From NCBI GenBank assembly GCA_009783395.1, contig WRHA01000339.1, positions 1 to 9,178 of the forward strand: a DNA stretch of 9,178 nucleotides, written 5' to 3'. Positions 2-9,178 of the stretch are shown here, one piece after another. The position numbers were made by a program, and so were the translations under genes. Each line of letters starts with the position of its first letter. Position 1 is the first letter of the stretch. A model generated the notes under the pieces. The model did no database searches, was not told the DNA's origin, and saw only the letters and a list, made by a program, of their open reading frames with translations. The DNA is from Defluviitaleaceae bacterium. Its GTDB lineage: Bacteria > Bacillota > Clostridia > Lachnospirales > WQUN01.

Positions 2-2065
2 ATTTCGGATGAGTTTGCGGAATTGAAAAAAGAACAGCCGGATTTCATGACCGAATTAACAAGTACGGCGCGTGTTGGACGTAGCTTGGGGGTTCACCTA
101 ATCCTTGCCACCCAAAAGCCCGGTGGTGTCGTGGATGACCAAATTCGTAGTAACAGCAGATTTCGCGTTTGCCTAAAGGTTCAAGACAACGGCGACAGCA
201 TGGAAATGTTGGGGCGGTCGGATGCGGCAATGCTTGTGGATACAGGGCGTTTCTACTTACAGGTTGGATACAATGAGATTTTTGAAATTGGTCAATCCGC
301 ATGGGCAGGTGCGCCGTATTATCCGTCCCAGCGGGCAATTAAAGACCGTGATGATGCTGTTTCGGTGATTAACACAAACGGGCGAACAATTGCGGAAAAC
401 AATACAAACAGATTCGCTATGATAACAGACCCGCCAAAACAGCTTGATGTTATCACTAAGTACGTAGCTAAAATTTGCGACGAGGAAAAAATTGACCATT
501 GGAAGATGTGGCTTGACCCGATACCGCCGCATATTTACGTTGACGAACTTTCAGAAAAATATGCGGAAACAAAAGAGCAGCAGTTTGTCCTTAATCCGAT
601 TGTCGGCGAATATGACGACCCAGCACACCAATCGCAGGGGGTGTTGCGTGTTCCAATCACCCGTGATGGCAATACCATAATTTACGGTTCGGCAGGCAAT
701 GGCAAAGAAATGTTTATTGAGGCTATGTGCTATTCGTTACTTAACGAACATTCCCCACAGGAAGTAAATTTATACATTTTGGATTTTGGCGCGGAAACGC
801 TGACTGCGTTTTCAAAAGCTCCGCATGTTGGCGATGTTGTACTGTCTCGTGATACTGAAAAGATCGGGAATCTTTTTAAAATGCTGGGCGAAAAACTTGA
901 AATGCGCAGAAATTTGCTTGCCGAGTATGGCGGTGACTTGCTTCAGTACAACAAAAATGAAACTCAAGCGGAATCAAGTATTGTTATAGTAATCAACAAT
1001 TTTGCCATTTTTTCCGAAATGTACGGAGATTTGGCAGGAGATATCGGATACCTGACGAGTGAGGGCACAAAGTACGGTATATATTTTGTGCTGACTTGTA
1101 CCGGCATTAACAACGTAAGATACTCATTGCTACAAAATTTTAAAAATTTATATTGTTTGCGCCTAAATAATATAGACGATTATACATCTGTTATTGGACG
1201 AACGGGCGGCTTGATACCGGAAAGCTTCAAGGGAAGGGGTTTGCTTCGTCAAGGTAAAGATTCTGTATTTGAATTTCAAGTAGCGGCTGTGACGAGAGAG
1301 GAAACATCTTTCAAGTTTATTAATACATTTTCTCAAAAACTGTCTGATGAATACAAGGGAATAAAGGCTCAGGGCATCCCTGTTTTGCCGGAGGTCGTAA
1401 CAGAACAATTTTTGATCTCGGCAATTGAAAAGAATAACATGCGCCGTGTCCCAATAGGCGTGGAAAAGGAAACCTTAAACATTGCTTTCCAAGACTTTTC
1501 CGGCATTTGTTTGGTTTTGTCCGTGAATCAAGAGTGGAAGAATTTTATTGATCCACTTGGATCGATGATTGATGGACAGTACGACATAAAGGTTGCAATA
1601 ATGGCACAGGGAGACCCTGCAGAGAGTGTACTCAGCACTGTTGAGGATTGCATACAGCTAATTTGCGAAATAGAAACCCCTGCACAAAAGCCAACGGTTG
1701 TCATTATACACTCTCTATCTGCGCTTACTGCGATGTTTGAACAATATAAGCCTAATGATGAGGGCGATGACGACGGCAGAACATTTGTTAATAAGCTTAA
1801 ATCAACTATGGAAAATGCCGGAACGAAATCCAATATCTATTTTGTAGTAGGGGAAAGTTCGGGGCACTTGACTTCGTTAACACTGGATAGCTGGTACAAA
1901 AAATTTGTAAACGATAGCAATTGTATATGGGTAGGCAATGGAATTAGTAATCAATACCGCTTGAAACTTAACAAAATCCCATCGGATTATAGGTCGGAGC
2001 TTAGTGAAAATTATGGATTTGTTGTAAAAAATTCTATAGCTACACTCGTAAAATTCCTTCAATAG
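2..2065 (+). CDS. essC: EssC/YukB-like T7SS FtsK/SpoIIIE ATPase, C-terminal part (5' end outside window)
   Basis: This is the membrane-anchored coupling ATPase that recognises and drives WXG100 substrates through the type VII secretion channel. The visible 687 residues open in the Walker B of one FtsK/SpoIIIE domain (ISDEFAELK, acidic pair at 8-13), followed by the family signature HLILATQKP and DDQIRSNSRF. A second ATPase domain follows (about 590-1320). Its P-loop at 686-709 reads GSAGNGKE, where Thr/Ser is expected after Lys, and its Walker B at 980-1003 reads IVIVINNF, with Asn-Asn in place of the acidic pair. A third domain (about 1430-2000) has no recognisable P-loop. Degenerate distal ATPase domains are known in EssC, so these are probably substrate-binding or regulatory. 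The C terminus (YGFVVKNSIATLVKFL) is family-typical, so the 3' end looks intact. The frame is open back to the window edge. FHA domains and transmembrane helices would lie upstream and cannot be seen. Confidence 0.95.
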   Translation: MSDEFAELKKEQPDFMTELTSTARVGRSLGVHLILATQKPGGVVDDQIRSNSRFRVCLKVQDNGDSMEMLGRSDAAMLVDTGRFYLQVGYNEIFEIGQSAWAGAPYYPSQRAIKDRDDAVSVINTNGRTIAENNTNRFAMITDPPKQLDVITKYVAKICDEEKIDHWKMWLDPIPPHIYVDELSEKYAETKEQQFVLNPIVGEYDDPAHQSQGVLRVPITRDGNTIIYGSAGNGKEMFIEAMCYSLLNEHSPQEVNLYILDFGAETLTAFSKAPHVGDVVLSRDTEKIGNLFKMLGEKLEMRRNLLAEYGGDLLQYNKNETQAESSIVIVINNFAIFSEMYGDLAGDIGYLTSEGTKYGIYFVLTCTGINNVRYSLLQNFKNLYCLRLNNIDDYTSVIGRTGGLIPESFKGRGLLRQGKDSVFEFQVAAVTREETSFKFINTFSQKLSDEYKGIKAQGIPVLPEVVTEQFLISAIEKNNMRRVPIGVEKETLNIAFQDFSGICLVLSVNQEWKNFIDPLGSMIDGQYDIKVAIMAQGDPAESVLSTVEDCIQLICEIETPAQKPTVVIIHSLSALTAMFEQYKPNDEGDDDGRTFVNKLKSTMENAGTKSNIYFVVGESSGHLTSLTLDSWYKKFVNDSNCIWVGNGISNQYRLKLNKIPSDYRSELSENYGFVVKNSIATLVKFLQ

Positions 2066-2071
2066 TGACGA

Positions 2072-2075
2072 GAGG
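2072..2075 (+). promoter_or_regulatory. Ribosome binding site deciding the start of the YukD-like gene
   Basis: GAGG lies 7 nt before the ATG at 2083. In-frame GTG (2065) and ATG (2077) codons sit before or almost on this site, so 2083 is the favoured start. The site is only 6 nt after the essC stop, which suggests coupled translation. Confidence 0.6.
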
Positions 2076-2082
2076 CATGTTT

Positions 2083-2334
2083 ATGAAAAAATATCTTGTT
2101 GATGTGTATGTACCTTCAGTGAGTAAGCATTACGATGTACTTTTGCCTGCCGAAAAGAAAATCGGAGAGGCAACAATGTTGCTTGTAGAAATCGTTGAGT
2201 CTTTATCGAACAAAAGCTACAAAGGCTCGCAAGGCTCTATGTTGCTCAGAGCGGACAATGGTGTTCCGCTAGATAAAGGAGCAACGGTTTTTGAATCTAA
2301 GATTCGCAATGCAACGAGATTGATCCTGATTTGA
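2083..2334 (+). CDS. YukD/EsaB-like ubiquitin-fold T7SS accessory protein
   Basis: The 83-residue protein begins MKKYLVDVYVPS, a charged start followed by a beta-strand pattern. It continues through a predicted helix (GEATMLLVEIVESLSN) and closes with a strand (NATRLILI). Small size, beta-grasp-like pattern, the final hydrophobic strand and position directly after essC match the YukD/EsaB family. These are ubiquitin-like cytoplasmic proteins needed for, or regulating, T7SSb activity, without a ubiquitin-type conjugating Gly-Gly tail; none is seen here. The start at 2083 is chosen because GAGG at 2072-2075 is correctly spaced; a GTG at 2065 overlapping the essC stop would add six residues. Assignment to the family rests on pattern and context rather than a diagnostic catalytic motif. 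Confidence 0.75.
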   Translation: MKKYLVDVYVPSVSKHYDVLLPAEKKIGEATMLLVEIVESLSNKSYKGSQGSMLLRADNGVPLDKGATVFESKIRNATRLILI

Positions 2335-2396
2335 AGTTCAATGCCGGAGCCGCCTATTATCAAGGCTACCACGACTGGCTTGGATAAAAAAATACG

Positions 2397-2404
2397 AAAG
2401 GAGG
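2397..2404 (+). promoter_or_regulatory. Strong ribosome binding site for the first WXG100-like gene
   Basis: AAAGGAGG lies 9 nt before the ATG at 2414. It is a near-perfect match to the 16S anti-Shine-Dalgarno sequence and predicts high translation, as expected for a secreted small protein. Confidence 0.75.
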
Positions 2405-2413
2405 CATAAAAAG

Positions 2414-2758
2414 ATGCCTATTGTAAAAGCTGCTGGAAAACTTATTATTAACGCGCCTAAAATTTTAGCCGCTGTACAAATGTTTCGTAATACTTTTCTT
2501 CCGGAAGTGCAAGACATAATTGACCGAATACGTGGCGTACAAACCGGACCGTTAGAACAATTTTGGGCAGCGTCACAAAATGTTGACAGTCAAATGTTTC
2601 AAGAAAGAATGAACGCTTTGCATGCTGACGTCGTACACTTGAAGAGTCTTTTGCAGGAGTACGAAACGCTGCTAGAGCAAAGTGCAAGGGGCTTCCAAGA
2701 TGTGCAAGAAATGAACTTGTCGGCTGTAGGTGGATTAGTTAGCCCAAGAGGGAATTAA
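2414..2758 (+). CDS. WXG100-superfamily helical hairpin protein (W-A-A variant)
   Basis: The 114-residue protein has an amphipathic helix at about 17-44, a turn with Trp51 (FWAASQN, where canonical WXG100 proteins have W-x-G), and a second helix at about 57-100 rich in heptad-spaced Leu, Phe, Met and Val (for example VVHLKSLLQEYETLL). The length and helix-turn-helix layout fit the ESAT-6/WXG100 superfamily of T7SS substrates. It has about 16 extra N-terminal residues before the first helix and a flexible Gly/Ser/Pro tail. No Y-x-x-x-D/E export signal is visible after helix 2. The next gene product does carry one, so the simplest model is a heterodimer in which that partner supplies the signal. 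Family membership is fairly sure; substrate versus chaperone role is not. Confidence 0.75.
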   Translation: MPIVKAAGKLIINAPKILAAVQMFRNTFLPEVQDIIDRIRGVQTGPLEQFWAASQNVDSQMFQERMNALHADVVHLKSLLQEYETLLEQSARGFQDVQEMNLSAVGGLVSPRGN

Positions 2759-2793
2759 TGTACATGTCAAGCTTTAACAAATTTATTGGAAGG

Positions 2794-2802
2794 AAGGAGG
2801 TG
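2794..2802 (+). promoter_or_regulatory. Consensus ribosome binding site (AAGGAGGTG)
   Basis: A full-length anti-16S match sits just upstream of the ATG at 2808, in a 49-nt gap that holds no other clear signal. It predicts strong expression of the second WXG100 gene. Confidence 0.8.
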
Positions 2803-2807
2803 GAATC

Positions 2808-3128
2808 ATGGCAGAAGGTAATATTAGGGTTACTCCGGAGCAATTAAGAGACGTCGCTACTCAAATCGGGGCCATTCGTTTGGATTTAGACGATCGATTC
2901 ACTGCAATATACAATCAGATGATGGCTCTCGAAGACGATGGATGGTGTACTGAATCGGGTACCGAACTCCGAACAAGGTTCGCTAATCTACGGCAATGTT
3001 ATTTTGAAACATATCCGCCGGCAATGGAATCGTACATGCAGTTTCTTAGAGACACTGCGGATAGGTATGACAATGAAGAGGCCGCTCGAATGTCGGCTGT
3101 ACAGGAGATGGCTACCTCTACGCAATGA
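2808..3128 (+). CDS. WXG100-family protein with Y-x-x-x-E export motif
   Basis: The 106-residue protein starts with the frequent WXG100 opening pattern (I-R-V-T-P-E-Q-L). It forms a helical hairpin with a turn at Trp46 (DDGWCTESG; Gly comes five residues after Trp, not two). The second helix ends in Y87-D-N-E-E91, a match to the Y-x-x-x-D/E general T7SS export signal, which normally follows helix 2 of one member of a WXG100 dimer. Two cysteines (47 and 64) are present and could matter after export, but no evidence shows that they pair. It is preceded by a consensus ribosome binding site and followed 11 nt after its stop by a long hairpin. The probable role is the signal-bearing partner of the 2414-2758 product and an EssC substrate. 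Confidence 0.85.
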   Translation: MAEGNIRVTPEQLRDVATQIGAIRLDLDDRFTAIYNQMMALEDDGWCTESGTELRTRFANLRQCYFETYPPAMESYMQFLRDTADRYDNEEAARMSAVQEMATSTQ

Positions 3129-3139
3129 CAAAATGCATT

Positions 3140-3195
3140 TCAAGGGACAACGCCCATTCATTAATCGTGGTAGTGAATGGCGGTTGTTCCCTTGA
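3140..3195 (+). repeat. Long imperfect inverted repeat (RNA hairpin) between the two WXG100 pairs
   Basis: The left arm at 3140-3160 pairs with the right arm at 3174-3195 around a 13-nt loop. Reading the pairs gives an 8-bp stem (TCAAGGGA with TCCCTTGA), a bulged T at 3187, 4 bp, a bulged G at 3182, 3 bp, a bulged C at 3155 and 5 bp, so 20 bp with three single-base bulges. No U-tract follows (the next bases are GCTACATAATT), so it is not a canonical rho-independent terminator. It may set mRNA processing, stability or partial read-through, or be a small dispersed palindromic element. Confidence 0.7.
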
Positions 3196-3211
3196 GCTAC
3201 ATAATTAATAC

Positions 3212-3217
3212 AAGGAG
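3212..3217 (+). promoter_or_regulatory. Ribosome binding site deciding the start at 3226
   Basis: AAGGAG lies 8 nt before the ATG at 3226. An in-frame GTG at 3217 overlaps the last base of this site and so cannot be the start served by it. Confidence 0.7.
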
Positions 3218-3225
3218 TGAAACAC

Positions 3226-3510
3226 ATGACAATCAACATCTCAAACATAAGCAATCAAGCAAATCAGCTAAGGATGCAAGTCAGCTCTTTGAACAGTTCG
3301 CAAATATCCATATCTTCATACCAGCGCAACTTAAACACCCATTGGCGGGGGTCGGAAATGCAACTCATCAATCAAGCACTCGACAACCACGCCGCAAAAA
3401 TTGCGAAGATTGCAACAGAATTGGACATTATCATTAATAATATAATTCAAGAGGCTGATAGGATAAAGATGGAAGAAGAAACGGCTATACGAAATCAAAT
3501 GTCGCACTGA
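3226..3510 (+). CDS. Canonical WXG100-family protein (W-R-G)
   Basis: The 94-residue protein has helix 1 at about 6-34, a turn holding the textbook W40-R-G42 motif (THWRGSE), and helix 2 at about 47-85 (for example AKIAKIATELDIIINNII). Size and motif place it clearly in the WXG100 (ESAT-6-like) family secreted by T7SS. It lacks a Y-x-x-x-D/E motif at its C-terminal end, whereas the next gene product has one, so it is probably the signal-less half of a heterodimer. The ATG at 3226 is preferred over the GTG at 3217 because the AAGGAG at 3212-3217 is spaced for 3226 and overlaps the GTG. The 97-nt gap before it contains the inverted repeat. Confidence 0.88.
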   Translation: MTINISNISNQANQLRMQVSSLNSSQISISSYQRNLNTHWRGSEMQLINQALDNHAAKIAKIATELDIIINNIIQEADRIKMEEETAIRNQMSH

Positions 3511-3511
3511 C

Positions 3512-3517
3512 AGGAGG
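3512..3517 (+). promoter_or_regulatory. Strong ribosome binding site (AGGAGG) for the fourth small gene
   Basis: AGGAGG lies 7 nt before the ATG at 3525 and only 2 nt after the preceding stop codon. This tight spacing suggests coupled, near-equal translation of the 3226 and 3525 genes. Confidence 0.75.
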
Positions 3518-3524
3518 CAAAAAA

Positions 3525-3824
3525 ATGGATATTGACATAAACACAACCCTCGCAAAATCTGCAAACGAGCAACTGCCACTAATTATAAATCATATCAGCG
3601 AGACAAAAGAAAGCGTGTCAAGAATAATGTCCCTTATTGACCCTCGAGTGCTTGAGCGTGCAAATTTGCGTTCAATGTTTCGTAACGTACTAAACGGAAT
3701 TGAATCCGTCGAAAGCGACTTGATGCTTTTGCATCGAACCGTCATGCAAAACATAATCGCATATGAAGAGGCCGAGGCACGCGTCCGAACTAAAGTGCAA
3801 AATGTGCCGTCTGCAATAGAGTAA
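3525..3824 (+). CDS. Divergent WXG100-like partner protein with Y-x-x-x-E motif
   Basis: The 99-residue, mostly helical protein has helix 1 at about 5-38, a turn reading I38-D-P40 where WXG100 proteins have the Trp motif, and helix 2 at about 44-84. Helix 2 ends in Y80-E-E-A-E84, matching the Y-x-x-x-D/E T7SS export signal. It has no Trp at all, so motif searches would miss it. Length, two-helix layout, signal position and a 14-nt gap to the W-R-G gene indicate the second half of a heterodimer, like other T7SS pairs in which only one partner carries the signal. The family call is inferred from architecture and context and is less certain than for its neighbour. A gap of 42 nt separates it from the phosphatase start. 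Confidence 0.65.
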   Translation: MDIDINTTLAKSANEQLPLIINHISETKESVSRIMSLIDPRVLERANLRSMFRNVLNGIESVESDLMLLHRTVMQNIIAYEEAEARVRTKVQNVPSAIE

Positions 3825-3853
3825 TAATATTTAGTCGTTCAAGTTTTCGTGAT

Positions 3854-3858
3854 GGGGG
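3854..3858 (+). promoter_or_regulatory. Weak G-rich ribosome binding site for the phosphatase
   Basis: GGGGG lies 8 nt before the ATG at 3867 and is a much poorer match than the sites before the WXG100 genes. In-frame GTG (3849) and ATG (3852) codons precede it without a better site, so 3867 is favoured. The weak site fits lower expression of signalling proteins than of substrates. Confidence 0.45.
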
Positions 3859-3866
3859 TCGTCTTC

Positions 3867-5501
3867 ATGAAACTCACAACCTACGCAATCTGTGACATCG
3901 GCCGTGTCCGTGCCGACAATCAAGACAATTTATATCTGAACGGTGTTTTACGCGAATCTTTCTCCGACACATCGACATTTCGCCACAGCGACACTTCCGA
4001 TAATGTCGGAGTGTATGCCGTCGCAGATGGAATGGGCGGCGCGTCGCACGGCGGACTTGCTTCTTTTATTGCCGTAAATGAAATGAAGAAAACGAACTTT
4101 CCTAATAAAAAGGATGCAATGTCCCGATATTTGCTTGAACGAAACTCGGATATTTGCCACATCATGAAAAAAAACAACGGCGTTCGCATGGGTTCAACTT
4201 TTGCGGGGCTTTACGTTGCCGAGGATTCGGCGGTTGTAACCAATATCGGTGACAGCCGAATTTATTTGCTTCGCGGCGGGGAATTGCGGCAATTGAGTGT
4301 TGACCATACCGCCGCAAGAACGAAGGTCGAGCTTGGAATAATCACAGAGGAAGAAGCTCGCAAAGACCCCGAACGCAATAAATTAACTCAGCATTTGGGA
4401 ATTTTTCCGTCAGAAATGGAAATTGAGCCGTATAGAGAGCAAGTTACACTTTGTGATGGCGATGTTTTCTTGCTGTGCAGTGACGGCTTGACCGATATGC
4501 TGGATAACGATTTAATCCTGCATATCTTAAATACATATAATTCTCTCGAGGAAAAGGCAGAAGTACTACTCGCCGAGGCACTAAAAAACGGCGGCAGGGA
4601 TAATATTACGATTATGCTTGTTAATGCTCGTGCGGGCGGGAAATTCGCAAAGCGTCGAGGCCTTTTTGCTAAAAAGCCTGCACTGTATGCGGGCGTTGCG
4701 TCATTGCTAATTTTTATCGTTGTGTTTGGCGTTGTATTGACCGGAATGTTACGCAATGGCCGAGGTGCTGCTTCGCAGGATATAGGTTATGGGCAAAATT
4801 CGGACTCTCAGCGTATCGACAATTCAGAGGATGCACACGAAACATGGATTCCGCAGGAAACACCCGAACCCACGCCCGAATCAACTCATAGCTCTACACT
4901 CGAACCAACCTCAGAACCAACTCTAGAACCAACTCTAGAACTATCCCCGGAATCAACCCCTGAACAGACACCCGAACCGACACAAACTCCGACCTCTGCG
5001 CCGACACCTTCCCCAGCGCTACACCAAATACGATATGCACCTGTCGCAAATGTAGTCGAGATAAACAGAGATATTGCACGGAGCATATTGGAAGGTCGCG
5101 GATTCTATGTAACCGAAGAAGAATACTTCAACAATGAAGTGGAAGATGGGTTTGTGATTAGTCAAATTCCAGGGAGCGGAACCGAGCATCCCGTCGGAGG
5201 CCGGGTTACAATAATAGTAAGTCGGGGACATGCACCACAGGAATTGCCTGCTTACACGCCGACACCAACGCAGACTCTGCCCTCACCACCCATCGAGCCG
5301 GTGGTAACACCTGAACCACCGACAACACCAAGCCCGCCGCCTTCGCCGGAACCACCTTCCGATGACATCGAAAATGGCGACAACAATGTCAATAATAATG
5401 AAAATGATAACGAAAACGATGAATATAACAGTAGCGCAGCCGACCCTACAGTCAACTATACAGCCAACCCCGAAGACGATGAAGAGGAGTTACCCGAATG
5501 A
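3867..5501 (+). CDS. Membrane PP2C-type Ser/Thr phosphatase with extracellular PASTA domain
   Basis: The 544-residue protein should remove phosphate from Ser/Thr residues, probably opposing the kinase encoded next. Residues 1-255 form a complete PPM/PP2C domain with all metal-binding aspartates: D20 (VRADNQDN), D54 (VADGMGG), D206 (CSDGLTD) and D245 (GGRDNIT), plus NIGDSRIYLLRGG. A basic stretch is followed by one transmembrane helix (272-294), a Pro-Thr-Glu-Ser linker (about 320-385), one PASTA-like domain (388-454, ending TIIVSRG), a Pro-rich segment and an Asn/Asp/Glu-rich acidic tail. The catalytic part should face the cytoplasm and PASTA the outside. Most PrpC/Stp relatives are soluble and lack PASTA, which is normally found on kinases and penicillin-binding proteins. 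The start at 3867 gives the usual short approach to the catalytic core. The stop overlaps the kinase start by 4 nt. Confidence 0.93.
   Translation: MKLTTYAICDIGRVRADNQDNLYLNGVLRESFSDTSTFRHSDTSDNVGVYAVADGMGGASHGGLASFIAVNEMKKTNFPNKKDAMSRYLLERNSDICHIMKKNNGVRMGSTFAGLYVAEDSAVVTNIGDSRIYLLRGGELRQLSVDHTAARTKVELGIITEEEARKDPERNKLTQHLGIFPSEMEIEPYREQVTLCDGDVFLLCSDGLTDMLDNDLILHILNTYNSLEEKAEVLLAEALKNGGRDNITIMLVNARAGGKFAKRRGLFAKKPALYAGVASLLIFIVVFGVVLTGMLRNGRGAASQDIGYGQNSDSQRIDNSEDAHETWIPQETPEPTPESTHSSTLEPTSEPTLEPTLELSPESTPEQTPEPTQTPTSAPTPSPALHQIRYAPVANVVEINRDIARSILEGRGFYVTEEEYFNNEVEDGFVISQIPGSGTEHPVGGRVTIIVSRGHAPQELPAYTPTPTQTLPSPPIEPVVTPEPPTTPSPPPSPEPPSDDIENGDNNVNNNENDNENDEYNSSAADPTVNYTANPEDDEEELPE
4902..4937 (+). 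repeat. Three 12-bp tandem repeats in the phosphatase linker
   Basis: Units at 4902-4913, 4914-4925 and 4926-4937 begin GAACCAAC; the last two are identical (GAACCAACTCTA). They encode E-P-T-S/L units. The run lies inside a longer Pro-Thr-Glu region and could change length by slippage in steps of four residues without breaking the frame. Confidence 0.8.
5484..5489 (+). promoter_or_regulatory. Ribosome binding site of the kinase inside the phosphatase gene
   Basis: GAGGAG lies 8 nt before the ATG at 5498, within the last codons of the phosphatase (the Glu-Glu-Leu run). With the ATGA stop-start overlap at 5498-5501 this indicates translational coupling of kinase to phosphatase. Confidence 0.7.
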
Positions 5502-8500
5502 ACACAAAATACAAACCCGGCGACATAGTCCTTGGCAACTGGACGCTTGTCCGCTTAATCGGCGAAGGAAATTACGGAAGCGTTTTTGAAGCAGAGCGTG
5601 AAGATTTTGGTAGCGTCTATAAATCCGCAATCAAAATTATCACAATTCCGCAAAATCAATCCGAAATCAGAAGCATTCGTTCACAAGGCATGGATGATGA
5701 GAGCCTTACGGCGTATTTTCAAGGATTCGTTGAAGATATTGTGCGAGAATCCGCTTTAATGTCGCGGCTTAAAGGTACGCCGAACGTTGTGAGTTACGAA
5801 GACCATAGCGTTATTAAGCACGATGGCGAGATTGGTTGGAATATAATCATTCGCATGGAGCTACTTACGCCACTCTATGATTATTCGAAAAGCGAATCCT
5901 TCACCCGACAAACCATAATAAAGTTGGGTGTAGATATTTGTAGCGCGTTGGAATTATGTCAAAAGCACAACATTGTTCACCGCGACATTAAGCCGGAGAA
6001 TATTTTTGTGTCCGATTTGGGTGATTTCAAACTCGGCGATTTCGGCATTGCGCGGACTGTAGAAAAAACGAGCGGCGGACTGTCAAAAAAAGGGACATAT
6101 ACATATATGGCTCCGGAGGTTTATCGCGATGAAGCGTACGGCCCGAGCGTGGATATTTATTCGTTGGGTATCGTTTTGTATAGGTTGTTAAACGATAACC
6201 GCACACCTTTTCTTCCCGAATATCCAAAGCCGATAAAATACAGCGACCAAGAAGCGGCAAAGACAATGCGATTTAATGGAACGCCGTTGCCCGCACCGAA
6301 AAATGCAGACGGCAGGATTGCTGAAATTGTGTTAAAAGCCTGTGCGTTTGACCCGAATCTCAGGCATTCCAGCCCGATGCAACTACGGCAGGAACTTGAG
6401 GCAATTGCCTATTCTACAGCAGAAGCTCCGATAATTTATCCAAAGGGCGATTCGACACCTGTAAAGTCCGTGGATTACATTGATACCGAAGCTCCCGAAG
6501 GTACTGTCACAACAAGTTTGTTTGCTGATTTTCATGCGCAAGATGTAAAGAAATCGCGCAAGTCGAATAGCGAGAATACCAACGAGGCAACGGTGAGTTT
6601 ATTCGGTGATTCTGCCGGGCAAAGTTCGCGCACAAATGAAGGTACAGTGGGTTTGTTTGATGACTCAACCACTGAAGCTAAAAATATTCCCCGCAAACAA
6701 GCGTATGAACCTTCCGGGGTGCAGGTGAACAAAAATAATGAGTATACGAATAAAGAAGAGCCACAAAAGGACCGGTGGCAAAAAGCCCTGTTGCTTACAG
6801 GGATAGGAGCGGCATCTTTGCTTGTTTTTCTCGTAGTGGTTATTTTCATATCGGGACACGACCCCGAGAGCTCGTTATATGTAGAAAATGTTTTCGGCCA
6901 AAACTGGGTTGATGCCGAAAATATGTTGCGAGAGCAAGGATTTTCTGTGACCATAGTCGAAGAATATCACGATACTATGGTATCCGGAAGCGTACACAGC
7001 CAAAGTCCTGCGGCCGGAGCTGTGTTAGTTATCGGAGAAACGGTTGTGTTATCTGTGAGCCGCGGAGCAGAACCGACAGCCCCTCTCGTCCCCGATATTC
7101 AACCGGAATCTGAAGACAACTTGGAAGATGATGGCGTACCTGAAGTTGAATTTGAGGATGATGACGAACCGGAAGGCGAAAGCGAAGACGATGTTGAGCA
7201 GGGAGACGAACCAACATCGGAACCACCTCCACCGACGCACACTCCTGTCGAAAGCATAACGGGAGTACCAACGGCCGCGACAGTAGGGACGCCGTTGACC
7301 CTTTCGGGTACAGTTGCTCCAAGCAATGCAACGAACAGTAGCATTGCTTGGAGCGTTGCGAATGCCGGAGGCACGGGCGCGACAATAAGCGGAAATGCGC
7401 TGAATGCAACAGCGGAGGGGACGGTAACGGTTAGGGCAACCGTTGTAAACGGCTCATCCGCAACCTCAAATTTCACGCAAGATTTCAACATAACCGTTAG
7501 TGAGGCATTCGTTCCTGTAACAAGCGTAACGGGAGTACCAACAAGCGCAACAGCGGGTACGCCGTTAAATCTTTCGGGTACGGCAAACCCAAGCAACGCA
7601 ACCAATAGGAATATTGCGTGGAGTGTAGCAAGTGCCGGCGACACAGGTGCGTCAATAAGCGAAAACACGCTGAACACAACTGCGTCGGGTGTCGCGATAA
7701 TTAGGACAACTGTTACAAACGGCGAAACGGCAACCTCAAATTTCACACAAGATTTTAGCATTACAGTACGTGCGGCGTTCGTTCCTGTTACGAGCATAAC
7801 GGGCGTACCAATGACCGCGACAGCGGGTCAGCCATTGACTCTTTCAGGCACGGCAAACCCAAGCAACGCAACAAATAGGAATATTACGTGGAGCGTTGTG
7901 AATGCAGGAGGTACAGGTGCAACAATAAGTGGAAATAGGTTAAGTGCAACATCCGGAGGCACTGCAACAATACGGGCAACTGTAGTAAATGGCAGAACGC
8001 AATATGCCGACTTTACGCATGAAATTACTATTACAGTCGCACCAGCATCGACACCACCCCCACCAGCGCACATTCGTGTCGCAAACATAACGGGAGTACC
8101 ATCGAACGCGACGGTGGGGACGCCGTTGACCCTTTCGGGTACAGTTGCTCCAAACAATGCAACAAATAGAAATATTACATGGAGCGTCGCAAGCGCAGGG
8201 GGAACGGGTGCAACAATAAGCGGAAATACGTTGAACGCAACATCTGCAGGAACTGTGACGGTCAGGGCAACCATTACAAACGGTGCAACCGCGACCACAA
8301 ATTATACTCAAGATTTCAGAATAACGGTTGCCGCACCGGCACCGGCGGTTACGCCGCCAACCATAACTGCCACATCCCTGCCCGGCGGAATATTTGGTGA
8401 GACGTACACTGCGCAAACGCTCGCCGCGACCGGGGGGACACCGATTACATGGAGCATTGAGTCCGGTTCTTTACCCGATGGATTAAGTATGGGGACAGGC

Positions 8501-8869
8501 GGGATAATTGGAGGCCGCGCAAATGATTTCGGAACATTCAACTTCACCGTACGCGCCGAAAATGCCGGCGGTTATGACACAAGACAATTTACAATCACCA
8601 TACATGCATTGACATGGGGACAAAGCCCGTTCCACCAAGTTTCAGTCGGTCAGCCTTTTACGATGCCTATATCGATTACAGGTGCAACTCCAAGTTTTTG
8701 GACACTTGCGTCAGGTCAATTGCCTCCCGGAGTTTCATTTTGCATGACCAGTGGTACGATTAGCGGCACTCCGACAACCGCCGGAACATTTGCCTTCTCA
8801 TTTAGAATCGAGTTCGAAGACGTAGTGGGTGCCTTCACAACAGATCAGCTTACAATTGCAGTGCAGTAA
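5498..8869 (+). CDS. Receptor-type Ser/Thr protein kinase with PASTA and six Ig-like domains
   Basis: The 1123-residue single-pass kinase phosphorylates Ser/Thr on proteins. The cytoplasmic kinase domain (about 15-305) has G-loop GEGNYGSV (22-29), K46, helix-C E84, HRDIKPEN (161-168), DFG (181-183), activation-loop T200/T202 and APE (205-207), so it should be active. A linker (306-425) holds three E-G/A-T-V...L-F-x-D motifs (Thr336, 365, 383). A transmembrane helix (430-451) is followed by one PASTA-like domain (460-524), an acidic linker (about 530-575), four Big_2-like repeats (583-945) and two He_PIG-like domains (954-1037, 1038-1123). PrkC/PknB-type kinases usually carry several PASTA domains and no such Ig stack. 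It overlaps the phosphatase by 4 nt and is presumably its antagonist. The ligand is unknown; PASTA suggests cell-wall fragments, and the Ig stack suggests reach or adhesion. There is no LPxTG or other wall anchor. Confidence 0.95.
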   Translation: MNTKYKPGDIVLGNWTLVRLIGEGNYGSVFEAEREDFGSVYKSAIKIITIPQNQSEIRSIRSQGMDDESLTAYFQGFVEDIVRESALMSRLKGTPNVVSYEDHSVIKHDGEIGWNIIIRMELLTPLYDYSKSESFTRQTIIKLGVDICSALELCQKHNIVHRDIKPENIFVSDLGDFKLGDFGIARTVEKTSGGLSKKGTYTYMAPEVYRDEAYGPSVDIYSLGIVLYRLLNDNRTPFLPEYPKPIKYSDQEAAKTMRFNGTPLPAPKNADGRIAEIVLKACAFDPNLRHSSPMQLRQELEAIAYSTAEAPIIYPKGDSTPVKSVDYIDTEAPEGTVTTSLFADFHAQDVKKSRKSNSENTNEATVSLFGDSAGQSSRTNEGTVGLFDDSTTEAKNIPRKQAYEPSGVQVNKNNEYTNKEEPQKDRWQKALLLTGIGAASLLVFLVVVIFISGHDPESSLYVENVFGQNWVDAENMLREQGFSVTIVEEYHDTMVSGSVHSQSPAAGAVLVIGETVVLSVSRGAEPTAPLVPDIQPESEDNLEDDGVPEVEFEDDDEPEGESEDDVEQGDEPTSEPPPPTHTPVESITGVPTAATVGTPLTLSGTVAPSNATNSSIAWSVANAGGTGATISGNALNATAEGTVTVRATVVNGSSATSNFTQDFNITVSEAFVPVTSVTGVPTSATAGTPLNLSGTANPSNATNRNIAWSVASAGDTGASISENTLNTTASGVAIIRTTVTNGETATSNFTQDFSITVRAAFVPVTSITGVPMTATAGQPLTLSGTANPSNATNRNITWSVVNAGGTGATISGNRLSATSGGTATIRATVVNGRTQYADFTHEITITVAPASTPPPPAHIRVANITGVPSNATVGTPLTLSGTVAPNNATNRNITWSVASAGGTGATISGNTLNATSAGTVTVRATITNGATATTNYTQDFRITVAAPAPAVTPPTITATSLPGGIFGETYTAQTLAATGGTPITWSIESGSLPDGLSMGTGGIIGGRANDFGTFNFTVRAENAGGYDTRQFTITIHALTWGQSPFHQVSVGQPFTMPISITGATPSFWTLASGQLPPGVSFCMTSGTISGTPTTAGTFAFSFRIEFEDVVGAFTTDQLTIAVQ
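6497..6676 (+). other. Juxtamembrane linker segment with triplicated Thr-Val...Leu-Phe motif
   Basis: Three short protein repeats lie between kinase domain and membrane: EGTVTTSLFADF (T336, T338, T339), EATVSLFGDS (T365) and EGTVGLFDDS (T383). The surrounding residues are low-complexity and variable, so the motif is what is conserved. Each copy has a Thr three residues before the Leu of the Leu-Phe pair (T338, T365, T383). Position +3 after phospho-Thr is the main specificity site of FHA domains, so these are candidate autophosphorylation and FHA docking sites. That role is inferred. Confidence 0.65.
7244..8332 (+). repeat. Four tandem 270-291 bp repeats encoding Big_2-like Ig domains
   Basis: The repeats begin at 7244, 7514, 7784 and 8075 (residues 583, 673, 763 and 860). 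The first three have a 90-codon period; the step to the fourth is 97 codons because of an inserted Pro-rich linker. Each encodes ITGVP..A..G.PL.LSGT..P.NATN..I.WSV followed by GATIS.N.L..T. Repeats 1 and 4 share a 37-nt identical stretch (7286-7322 and 8117-8153), while 2 and 3 resemble each other in the same segment. Confidence 0.88.
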
Positions 8870-9178
8870 CCGACTCAAACTCCTGAAACCCGATAACTTG
8901 CCCCTTGTTGTTGAAGTAATATCTGTACGGATATTCGCGTTTTCGCGCTACTTCGGAAAATTCCTCGGTTACGGTCAAGCGATTTTTCAAGCGCGAAAGG
9001 GTAAACTCCCAATTGTTTGTAACATTCGCACCTAAGAGAATGTGATTATGTAACTCGCCGCCAAAGGGAACGGCTAGCGCGATAACTTTTTCCATGTCAT
9101 ACCCGCCGATGTTCATTTTGTGCAATATGCATATATTGGCATCGCCGCGAAAGCCGCCGACGGATACCTTCATCGTCT
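8850..9178 (-). CDS. Probable retropepsin-like aspartic protease, C-terminal part (5' end at or beyond window edge)
   Basis: This minus-strand frame is open from the window edge to a TAA at 8852-8850. The first visible ATG (9173) has only 5 nt before it, so the true start may lie outside. The visible sequence has FRGDANICI, a strand-like IGGYDMEKVIALAVP and then HILLGANVTNNWEFTLSR. This resembles the end of retropepsin-like folds (hydrophobic strand, I-L-L-G-x-N, then a strand with Phe). The catalytic D-T/S-G motif expected nearer the N terminus is not in the window, so activity cannot be judged. The gene converges on the kinase and overlaps its last 20 nt. It faces away from the T7SS genes and is probably a separate transcription unit. 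The family call is moderate; it could be another small beta-rich protein. Confidence 0.5.
   Translation of the reverse strand, partial: TMKVSVGGFRGDANICILHKMNIGGYDMEKVIALAVPFGGELHNHILLGANVTNNWEFTLSRLKNRLTVTEEFSEVARKREYPYRYYFNNKGQVIGFQEFESVTALQL

Follow-up and report, generated by a model that had tools for sequence, protein, structure and literature searches.

A predicted membrane-anchored PASTA kinase and PASTA-bearing phosphatase encoded beside a type VII secretion motor: a candidate phospho-switch in a Defluviitaleaceae bacterium

The stretch of DNA analysed here, referred to as the window, is an entire contig of 9178 nt (C339) from the assembly (1.72 Mb, 360 contigs, 71.5% complete) of a Defluviitaleaceae bacterium, and carries part of a type VII secretion system (T7SS) locus in which a PP2C-family phosphatase and a Ser/Thr kinase, both predicted to be membrane proteins with a PASTA domain, are encoded in one row with the secretion motor EssC. 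Judging from sequence, we consider it somewhat more probable than its opposite (roughly 0.55) that this PASTA kinase/PP2C pair sets a phospho-threonine state which is read by the predicted FHA domain of EssC, and thereby switches secretion. The row comprises, all on the + strand, the C-terminus of EssC, a YukD-like protein, four small Esx-like open reading frames (ORFs), the PP2C and the kinase (Table 1), and its successive spacings, taken from the coordinates, are a 1-nt overlap, 79, 49, 88, 14 and 24 nt, and a 4-nt overlap between the PP2C and kinase genes. Coordinates and profile matches agree in this respect with the preliminary description, which had reported a co-directional array with gaps below 100 nt and a terminal 4-nt overlap. 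The observation as such is real, well conserved and partly known, and the regulatory circuit is what we infer from it.

The phosphatase, whose probable true start is the ATG at 3867, has a predicted transmembrane (TM) segment at about residues 281–301, a Thr/Pro-rich linker and a single PASTA domain at residues 399–458, and its catalytic motifs are invariant in the alignment of its family (A3). In the kinase, the AIK, HRD, DFG and APE motifs are all present, together with a predicted TM segment at about residues 431–451, a single PASTA domain at residues 462–521, Big_2 repeats and two Ig-like stretches of the He_PIG kind. Each of the two proteins contains one strong hydrophobic segment. Homologues were inspected among the 120 listed of 2400 matches for the PP2C and the 120 listed of 7844 for the kinase. 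A membrane anchor is common in the former set, with a hydrophobic segment beyond residue 230 in 107 of the 120 listed matches, and PASTA was found among these best 120 of 2400 only in P0002 (79% identical) and in the window protein itself. At the 80 EssC loci surveyed below, PASTA was present in none of 48 PP2Cs vs 11 of 47 kinases. Among 99 PASTA domains collected, those closest to the domain of the phosphatase, after P0002, belong to kinases of the window's own subfamily (P0127, P0129 and P0150). Matches to the PP2C at E 1e-40 or better are present in only 3 of 392 genomes of the order, including its own. A literature search aimed at PASTA phosphatases led to PMC6213207, which in the part accessible to us attaches PASTA to kinases, and a search on T7SS with PASTA kinases and WXG100 proteins led nowhere. 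If confirmed, a PP2C with PASTA would be a phosphatase that itself reads the cell wall.

The EssC of the window, whose reading frame is open at the contig start, is the sole FtsK/SpoIIIE match of the whole genome (FtsK_SpoIIIE 81.3 bits, above cut-off) and represents the FtsK-type ATPase of the EssC/EccC kind by which a T7SS is recognized. Its score with TIGR03928 (E 8.5e-144, 480.8 bits) lies below the cut-off of 778, as expected for a fragment. The N-terminus is not in the window. A genome-wide search for FHA domains gave two matches, on contigs C187 and C110, the first of which (PF00498 E 1.6e-9) belongs to a piece from the N-terminal part of an EssC, so that the genome does contain the kind of FHA domain for which the preliminary description proposed to look upstream. 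In the numbering of relatives, the C187 piece ends at about residue 375 and the window EssC begins at about 834–845, so that the gap would measure about 460 residues. The identity to the EssC of two related loci, L057 and L058, is 59–60% for the N-terminal and 58–62% for the C-terminal piece, and the two are likely parts of one essC gene. At the alignment positions which we take, after Rad53 FHA1, to form the phospho-threonine-binding triad, the FHA domain of the C187 piece has R, S and N. Provided that both pieces are one gene, the ATPase here would be FHA-bearing, as in the T7SSe subtype. The C110 FHA domain, with R, S and G at these positions, is the end of a gene cut at its N-terminus, which is followed by a PP2C lacking a hydrophobic segment.

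The preliminary description had also held that Firmicute EssC proteins usually have N-terminal FHA domains which read phospho-threonine. This claim does not extend to T7SSb, where the EssC FHA domains have no phospho-threonine site and bind the EssB pseudokinase domain, according to the accessible part of a recent survey (Garrett, Higginson, Palmer 2024; PMC11217815, always cited here from that part). On this model the EssC FHA domain could be a phospho-independent docking module and the kinase an EssB-like scaffold. A search for EssB (PF10140) returned no match in the bacterium's own 71.5%-complete genome, the Bacillus subtilis control being positive, which suits a substitute for EssB; the catalytic motifs of the kinase are intact, however, it has a phosphatase as its partner, and the EssC FHA domain retains the triad, and such docking is in our judgement very unlikely.

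In order to see how far phospho-signalling genes accompany EssC elsewhere, we examined the best 80 of 551 EssC loci in named genomes, picked by similarity to EssC; the genes of these relatives are mechanical ORFs, without curated annotation, that were recognized by profiles started from proteins of the window and of C187/C110. FHA was present on 76 of 77 full-length named EssC proteins, in a survey that included no search aimed at FHA-less N-termini. Near essC, a PP2C was found in 35/80 loci, a kinase in 38/80, both in 30/80, and both plus a further FHA gene in 27/80, and in 17 of the 30 loci with both enzymes the PP2C immediately precedes a kinase encoded in the same direction, at a distance of −60 to +300 nt. 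The neighbourhood of essC, PP2C and kinase whose conservation the preliminary description had left to be checked therefore recurs, and of the conditions which that description named as refuting its idea, the two that sequence analysis can address do not hold. As a yardstick for chance proximity, the bacterium's own genome holds four kinase matches in 1.72 Mb, one of them partial, and three PP2C matches at E 1e-15, these counts being the sole yardstick. The window EssC itself was matched at E 1e-20 or better by 20 of 78 genomes of its kinship, its own included. A complete FHA triad was present in 39 of 43 EssC proteins linked to at least one kinase, PP2C or additional FHA gene vs 11 of 34 unlinked ones (77 with FHA alignment; Fisher 1.2e-7). 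We rejected this enrichment as strong evidence because it stems mostly from one 22-row EssC clade (within L098–L131; titles mainly Bacilli and Erysipelotrichaceae) which, in the stretch examined, has no linked kinase, PP2C or FHA gene and also lacks the full triad, often with Tyr for Asn; the correlation is suggestive only.

On the EssC tree, the window and genome G009 share a starred clade of 11 rows with the eight named loci L052–L059; L059 and the G032 contig of L032 are apparently one record, which leaves 10 distinct loci in the clade. An FHA protein and a PP2C immediately precede essC in L053, L055, L057 and L058, an FHA protein alone does so in L054, L056 and L059, and in L052 both are found further upstream. 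YukD was picked up after essC in five of the eight (L052, L053, L057, L058, L059). Further on, L052, L054, L055, L057, L058 and L059 encode two WXG pairs separated by a small TM protein and an Mbeg1-family hydrolase, in this order; the sequence of L053 breaks off before this region, and L056 was not covered. The window has neither the Mbeg1 hydrolase nor its TM neighbour between the Esx-like genes, and the L057 lipase as query gave no match in the bacterium's own genome, in a search without positive control. The FHA protein matches VWA models in six of eight members of the group (L052, L053, L054, L055, L058 and L177; not L056 and L059), four of the six being above the Pfam cut-off, and that of L057 did so below cut-off in a separate search. 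The T7SSe-like loci L034, L060 and L063 have DUF6382-FHA proteins instead. With the VWA-FHA protein of G009 as query, no match was obtained in the bacterium's own genome, again without positive control.

The careful kinase tree, which omits L086 as well as the orphan kinases of L206, L207, L209, L214, L215 and L217, sets the window kinase apart from the T7SSe-like kinases, in a starred clade of 20 rows (100/99). Kinases of the same clade occur at the EssC loci L045, L052, L054, L080, L082, L085, L088 and L114. A grouping of the kinases of the window's EssC clade (window, its second copy on C315, L052, L055, L057 and L058) was rejected (approximately unbiased (AU) test, p 0.0023), as was a grouping of the window kinase with housekeeping PrkC (AU p 7.7e-5), both p-values being optimistic because the groups were named after the first kinase tree had been seen. 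In a quick tree, the window PP2C lies in a clade of 24 rows (100*) and the T7SSe-like PP2Cs in another of 17 rows (97*), so that assignment of the pair to TseD/TseF was rejected for both enzymes; the PP2Cs adjoining the EssC of L053, L055, L057 and L058 fall in the window's broad PP2C clade. By these trees the pair is distinct from the housekeeping PrkC/PrpC and the TseD/TseF types and represents a different cassette lineage in the same slot.

Assigned from the quick trees, the loci with both enzymes show three cassette types, within which kinase and PP2C lineages are mostly matched: 15 TseD/TseF-like, seven of a second type and seven of the window type (window included), with three mixed (L055, L057 and L058); L093, where the kinase is a fragment, was not counted. 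On the EssC tree, parts of which are weakly supported, the three types require at least 8 changes over 29 loci, or at least 11 over 32 when the mixed loci are counted as a type. We read this as a phospho-control slot that persists beside EssC while its occupant cassette is replaced. The changes suggest that an EssC lineage keeps its kinase/PP2C slot and exchanges the occupant for another lineage, which argues for the importance of the slot, and closely related EssC loci that differ in their kinases would be pairs suited to direct tests.

In the switch as we envisage it, the PASTA domains of both enzymes would lie outside the membrane and bind cell-wall material. In one state, the kinase would phosphorylate threonines on a T7SS component, which might be EssC, an Esx protein or the kinase's own chain; these phospho-threonines would then be docking sites for the FHA domain of EssC, and the machine would assemble or open. 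In the other state, the phosphatase would reset the switch. If this is true, the pair likely switches the exporter on and off. More tentatively, and at odds that we put below even, separate receptor-kinase/receptor-phosphatase lineages may plug into the slot beside the T7SS motor, each with its own sensor; here, as writer and eraser carry the same kind of PASTA, one cue might drive both arms of the secretion switch.

Several observations weigh against such a switch. The two EssC pieces are on two separate contigs, and the FHA domain of the N-terminal piece has Gln for His, and Met for Gly after the triad Asn. Among the EssC loci surveyed, 35/80 have neither a kinase nor a PP2C nor an additional FHA gene in the stretch examined, some of them being cut by contig ends, and the 11 of 34 unlinked EssC proteins with a complete triad indicate that the triad does not need linked genes. 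A tree-aware test of the association between triad and linkage, with six independent pairs on starred branches, gave on average 1.9 in the expected way, 0.3 in the opposite way and 3.8 undecided (p 0.5), and for the kinase alone 2.0 expected vs 1.6 opposite of 11 pairs. The cassettes are not always matched, because the kinases of L055, L057 and L058 lie outside the window's kinase clade and their PP2Cs inside its PP2C clade. Finally, the kinase subfamily is often not linked to T7SS: it has 45 matches in the relative G032, and most mapped copies are not beside essC.

This last point is the main one for a different explanation, namely that kinase and phosphatase have no part in the control of secretion and are passengers or a module on the substrate side, one copy of an expanded subfamily having landed beside a T7SS. 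The subfamily was matched at E 1e-25 in 7 of 38 genomes of the family, its linkage to EssC is not general, and the bacterium itself holds a second copy with a kinase domain 91% identical on contig C315 (L008 224–3007), which stands alone after a divergent ORF, has no adjacent PP2C, and carries a PDZ-like stretch and DUF6273 in its ectodomain in place of PASTA and Ig. Same-clade kinases nevertheless recur at the eight EssC loci named above and other lineages fill the slot elsewhere, which makes a passenger role improbable in our view. In G032 (8.8 Mb; L206–L210, L214 and L215), some of the 45 kinases stand in tandem, and leucine-rich repeats (LRR) or Sel1 repeats follow the TM segment in three ectodomains tested; the expansion in this clostridial genome is receptor-kinase-like, and a literature search on bacterial LRR receptor kinases found nothing. 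In L080, two near-identical PASTA kinases (6000–8417 and 9282–11582) flank one PP2C within a T7SS locus.

Alternatively, the pair could be an envelope sensor for transcription or general wall homeostasis that affects the T7SS by expression only, as reported for IreK of Enterococcus faecalis (PMC11217815). PASTA on both enzymes would suit such a role, as would the occurrence of the kinase clade in other contexts: in L212 (3600–9188) a membrane protein that has a pair of FHA domains comes after a PP2C and a kinase of the window's clade, and in L216 and L217 a kinase adjoins such an FHA-FHA membrane protein, so that the kinase/PP2C cassette may also serve another machine. Upstream of the essC piece on C187, moreover, lie genes for a 165-aa protein, an EsxA-like WXG100 protein, a second WXG100 ORF, a 283-aa protein (L006 1044–1895) and a sigma-70 region 2 protein (L006 2–991). 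The 283-aa protein has an HxCxCxxC-like motif by eye and no Pfam match, and sigma/anti-sigma control by the two proteins is possible. The recurrent linkage to essC in spite of cassette changes, and the triad on the EssC FHA domain, speak against an effect by expression only, which we regard as unlikely.

The small proteins of the row were less uniform than the preliminary description, which had spoken of two WXG100 pairs, implied. Four Esx-like genes are indeed present, but only the second exceeds the Pfam WXG100 cut-off (31.6 bits), so that the label rests partly on position, the others being weak matches or an orphan. Profiles for each position were built from the WXG-pair proteins of seven related loci, with E-values that hold for four target sequences. 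The second protein matched the position-2 profile (26.4 bits), and the third, which has a WRG motif and a sub-threshold WXG100 score of 17.7 bits, matched that of position 3 (11.2 bits). The first gave weak matches to position 1 (11.9 bits) and position 4 (11.6 bits), not position by position, and its structural model is helical with low confidence (predicted local distance difference test (pLDDT) 66.7). For the fourth (99 aa), a protein-database search returned only itself. Its single-sequence AlphaFold2 model shows two long helices (pLDDT 88.9), for which Foldseek listed Esx proteins in four of the first five rows, none significant (best E 0.24), and VIA-align gave generic helical hairpins, with no Esx protein among the 50 rows listed. 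The YukD-like protein scored 24.6 bits with PF08817 against a cut-off of 27, and a profile seeded from it detected small proteins directly after essC in many related loci. Together with this sub-cut-off TsxB counterpart, WXG100 proteins above cut-off are encoded both in the window (2808–3128) and on C187, where the EsxA-like protein has 99 aa (E 1.4e-13), in keeping with the TsxB and second WXG100 protein of T7SSe.

Table 1. Coordinates of the genes of the window and of the EssC N-terminal piece on contig C187.
Feature	Position	Strand	Evidence
essC/tsxC, C-terminal 687 aa (end of first ATPase domain to C-terminus)	2–2065	+	PF01580 E 9e-23
YukD/EsaB/TsxB-like ubiquitin-fold protein; internal alternative ATG starts	2065–2334	+	PF08817 E 4e-5, sub-cut-off
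Esx-like small protein, first of four	2414–2758	+	weak WXG-pair profile matches; TIGR03930 E 0.002, sub-cut-off
WXG100/ESAT-6-like protein, position 2 of first pair	2808–3128	+	PF06013 E 2e-7, above cut-off
Third of four, WXG100-like, carries a WRG motif	3217–3510	+	PF06013 E 0.004, sub-cut-off
Small orphan, predicted helical hairpin, last of Esx-like set	3525–3824	+	AlphaFold2 single-sequence model
PP2C-family phosphatase, TM and PASTA predicted	3849–5501	+	PF00481 E 2e-14; PF03793 E 4e-10
Ser/Thr kinase, TM, PASTA and Ig-like stretches predicted	5498–8869	+	PF00069 E 2e-38; PF03793 E 5e-12; PF02368 E 3e-6; PF05345 E 5e-13
EssC N-terminal piece with FHA, residues 1 to about 375	L006 (contig C187) 3044–4195		

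In the second ATPase domain of EssC (window about 686–709), the P-loop reads GSAGNGKE, without Ser/Thr after the Lys, the consensus of the EssC alignment (A1) being GSxGNGKx. A 107-aa ORF on the − strand (8850–9176), open at the contig end and without Pfam match, converges on the end of the kinase gene by 20 nt. An Rfam scan of the window at the gathering threshold gave no match, and promoter and terminator scans were uninformative (20 promoter-like sites vs 13.8 expected; nine terminator-like sites vs 11.2 expected).

When compared with known systems, the locus recalls the type VI secretion system (T6SS), in which PpkA, PppA and Fha tie a kinase, a phosphatase and an FHA reader to a secretion machine. 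It is alike in idea and not a member, the machine here being EssC/Esx and the predicted FHA reader the motor's own N-terminus; T6SS families were absent from the Pfam/NCBIfam matches of the window proteins, no search aimed at T6SS having been made. The preliminary description had drawn this parallel, which is not new: the central idea, phospho-control of T7SS, is already in print. The accessible part of PMC11217815 names the subtypes T7SSc–j, describes kinases, phosphatases and FHA proteins among their components, points out that TsdC, TseC and TsjC conserve the phospho-threonine site, and suggests that several of these subtypes are controlled by phosphorylation, with the same T6SS comparison and citing the threonine phosphorylation case of the Agrobacterium T6SS. 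That proposal rests on gene content, and among the papers listed by a search from 2022 onward on EssC, FHA, phosphorylation and T7SS, none reports a test of phospho-control by its title. PASTA on a phosphatase, a cassette other than TseD/TseF and relatives of the VWA-TM-FHA kind were not found in that part of PMC11217815.

With T7SSb (EssA/EssB/EssC/EsaA/EsaB), the locus shares EssC, YukD and Esx proteins, and it differs in that the FHA domain on its own EssC piece keeps the phospho site. The PrkC/PrpC, Stk1/Stp1 and PknB/PstP systems resemble it in that a PP2C gene adjoins that of a membrane PASTA kinase, and the PASTA domains of such kinases bind peptidoglycan (PMC6213207, accessible part). 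Unlike in these systems, however, PASTA occurs here also on the phosphatase, the window kinase has one PASTA domain vs three, and a housekeeping-type pair of a PP2C and a kinase with three PASTA domains is encoded separately in the same genome on C120. The likeness to T7SSe (TseA–K), and also to T7SSc, T7SSd and T7SSj, is in gene content, namely an FHA-bearing ATPase, a YukD-like protein, paired WXG100 proteins and a PPM/PP2C with a membrane kinase in one locus. PMC11217815 reports a reverse lipase at a T7SSe cluster, and in the six relatives of the window's clade tested the WXG pairs are separated by Mbeg1-family hydrolases. In contrast to T7SSe, the kinase and the PP2C of the window fall outside the clades of T7SSe-like loci, the phosphatase carries PASTA and the kinase PASTA with Ig-like repeats, and the window lacks the lipase. 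As regards TseJ (DUF6382-FHA), the FHA gene that the bacterium has on C110 is truncated N-terminally, and the relatives of its clade have VWA-TM-FHA proteins where T7SSe-like loci have DUF6382-FHA.

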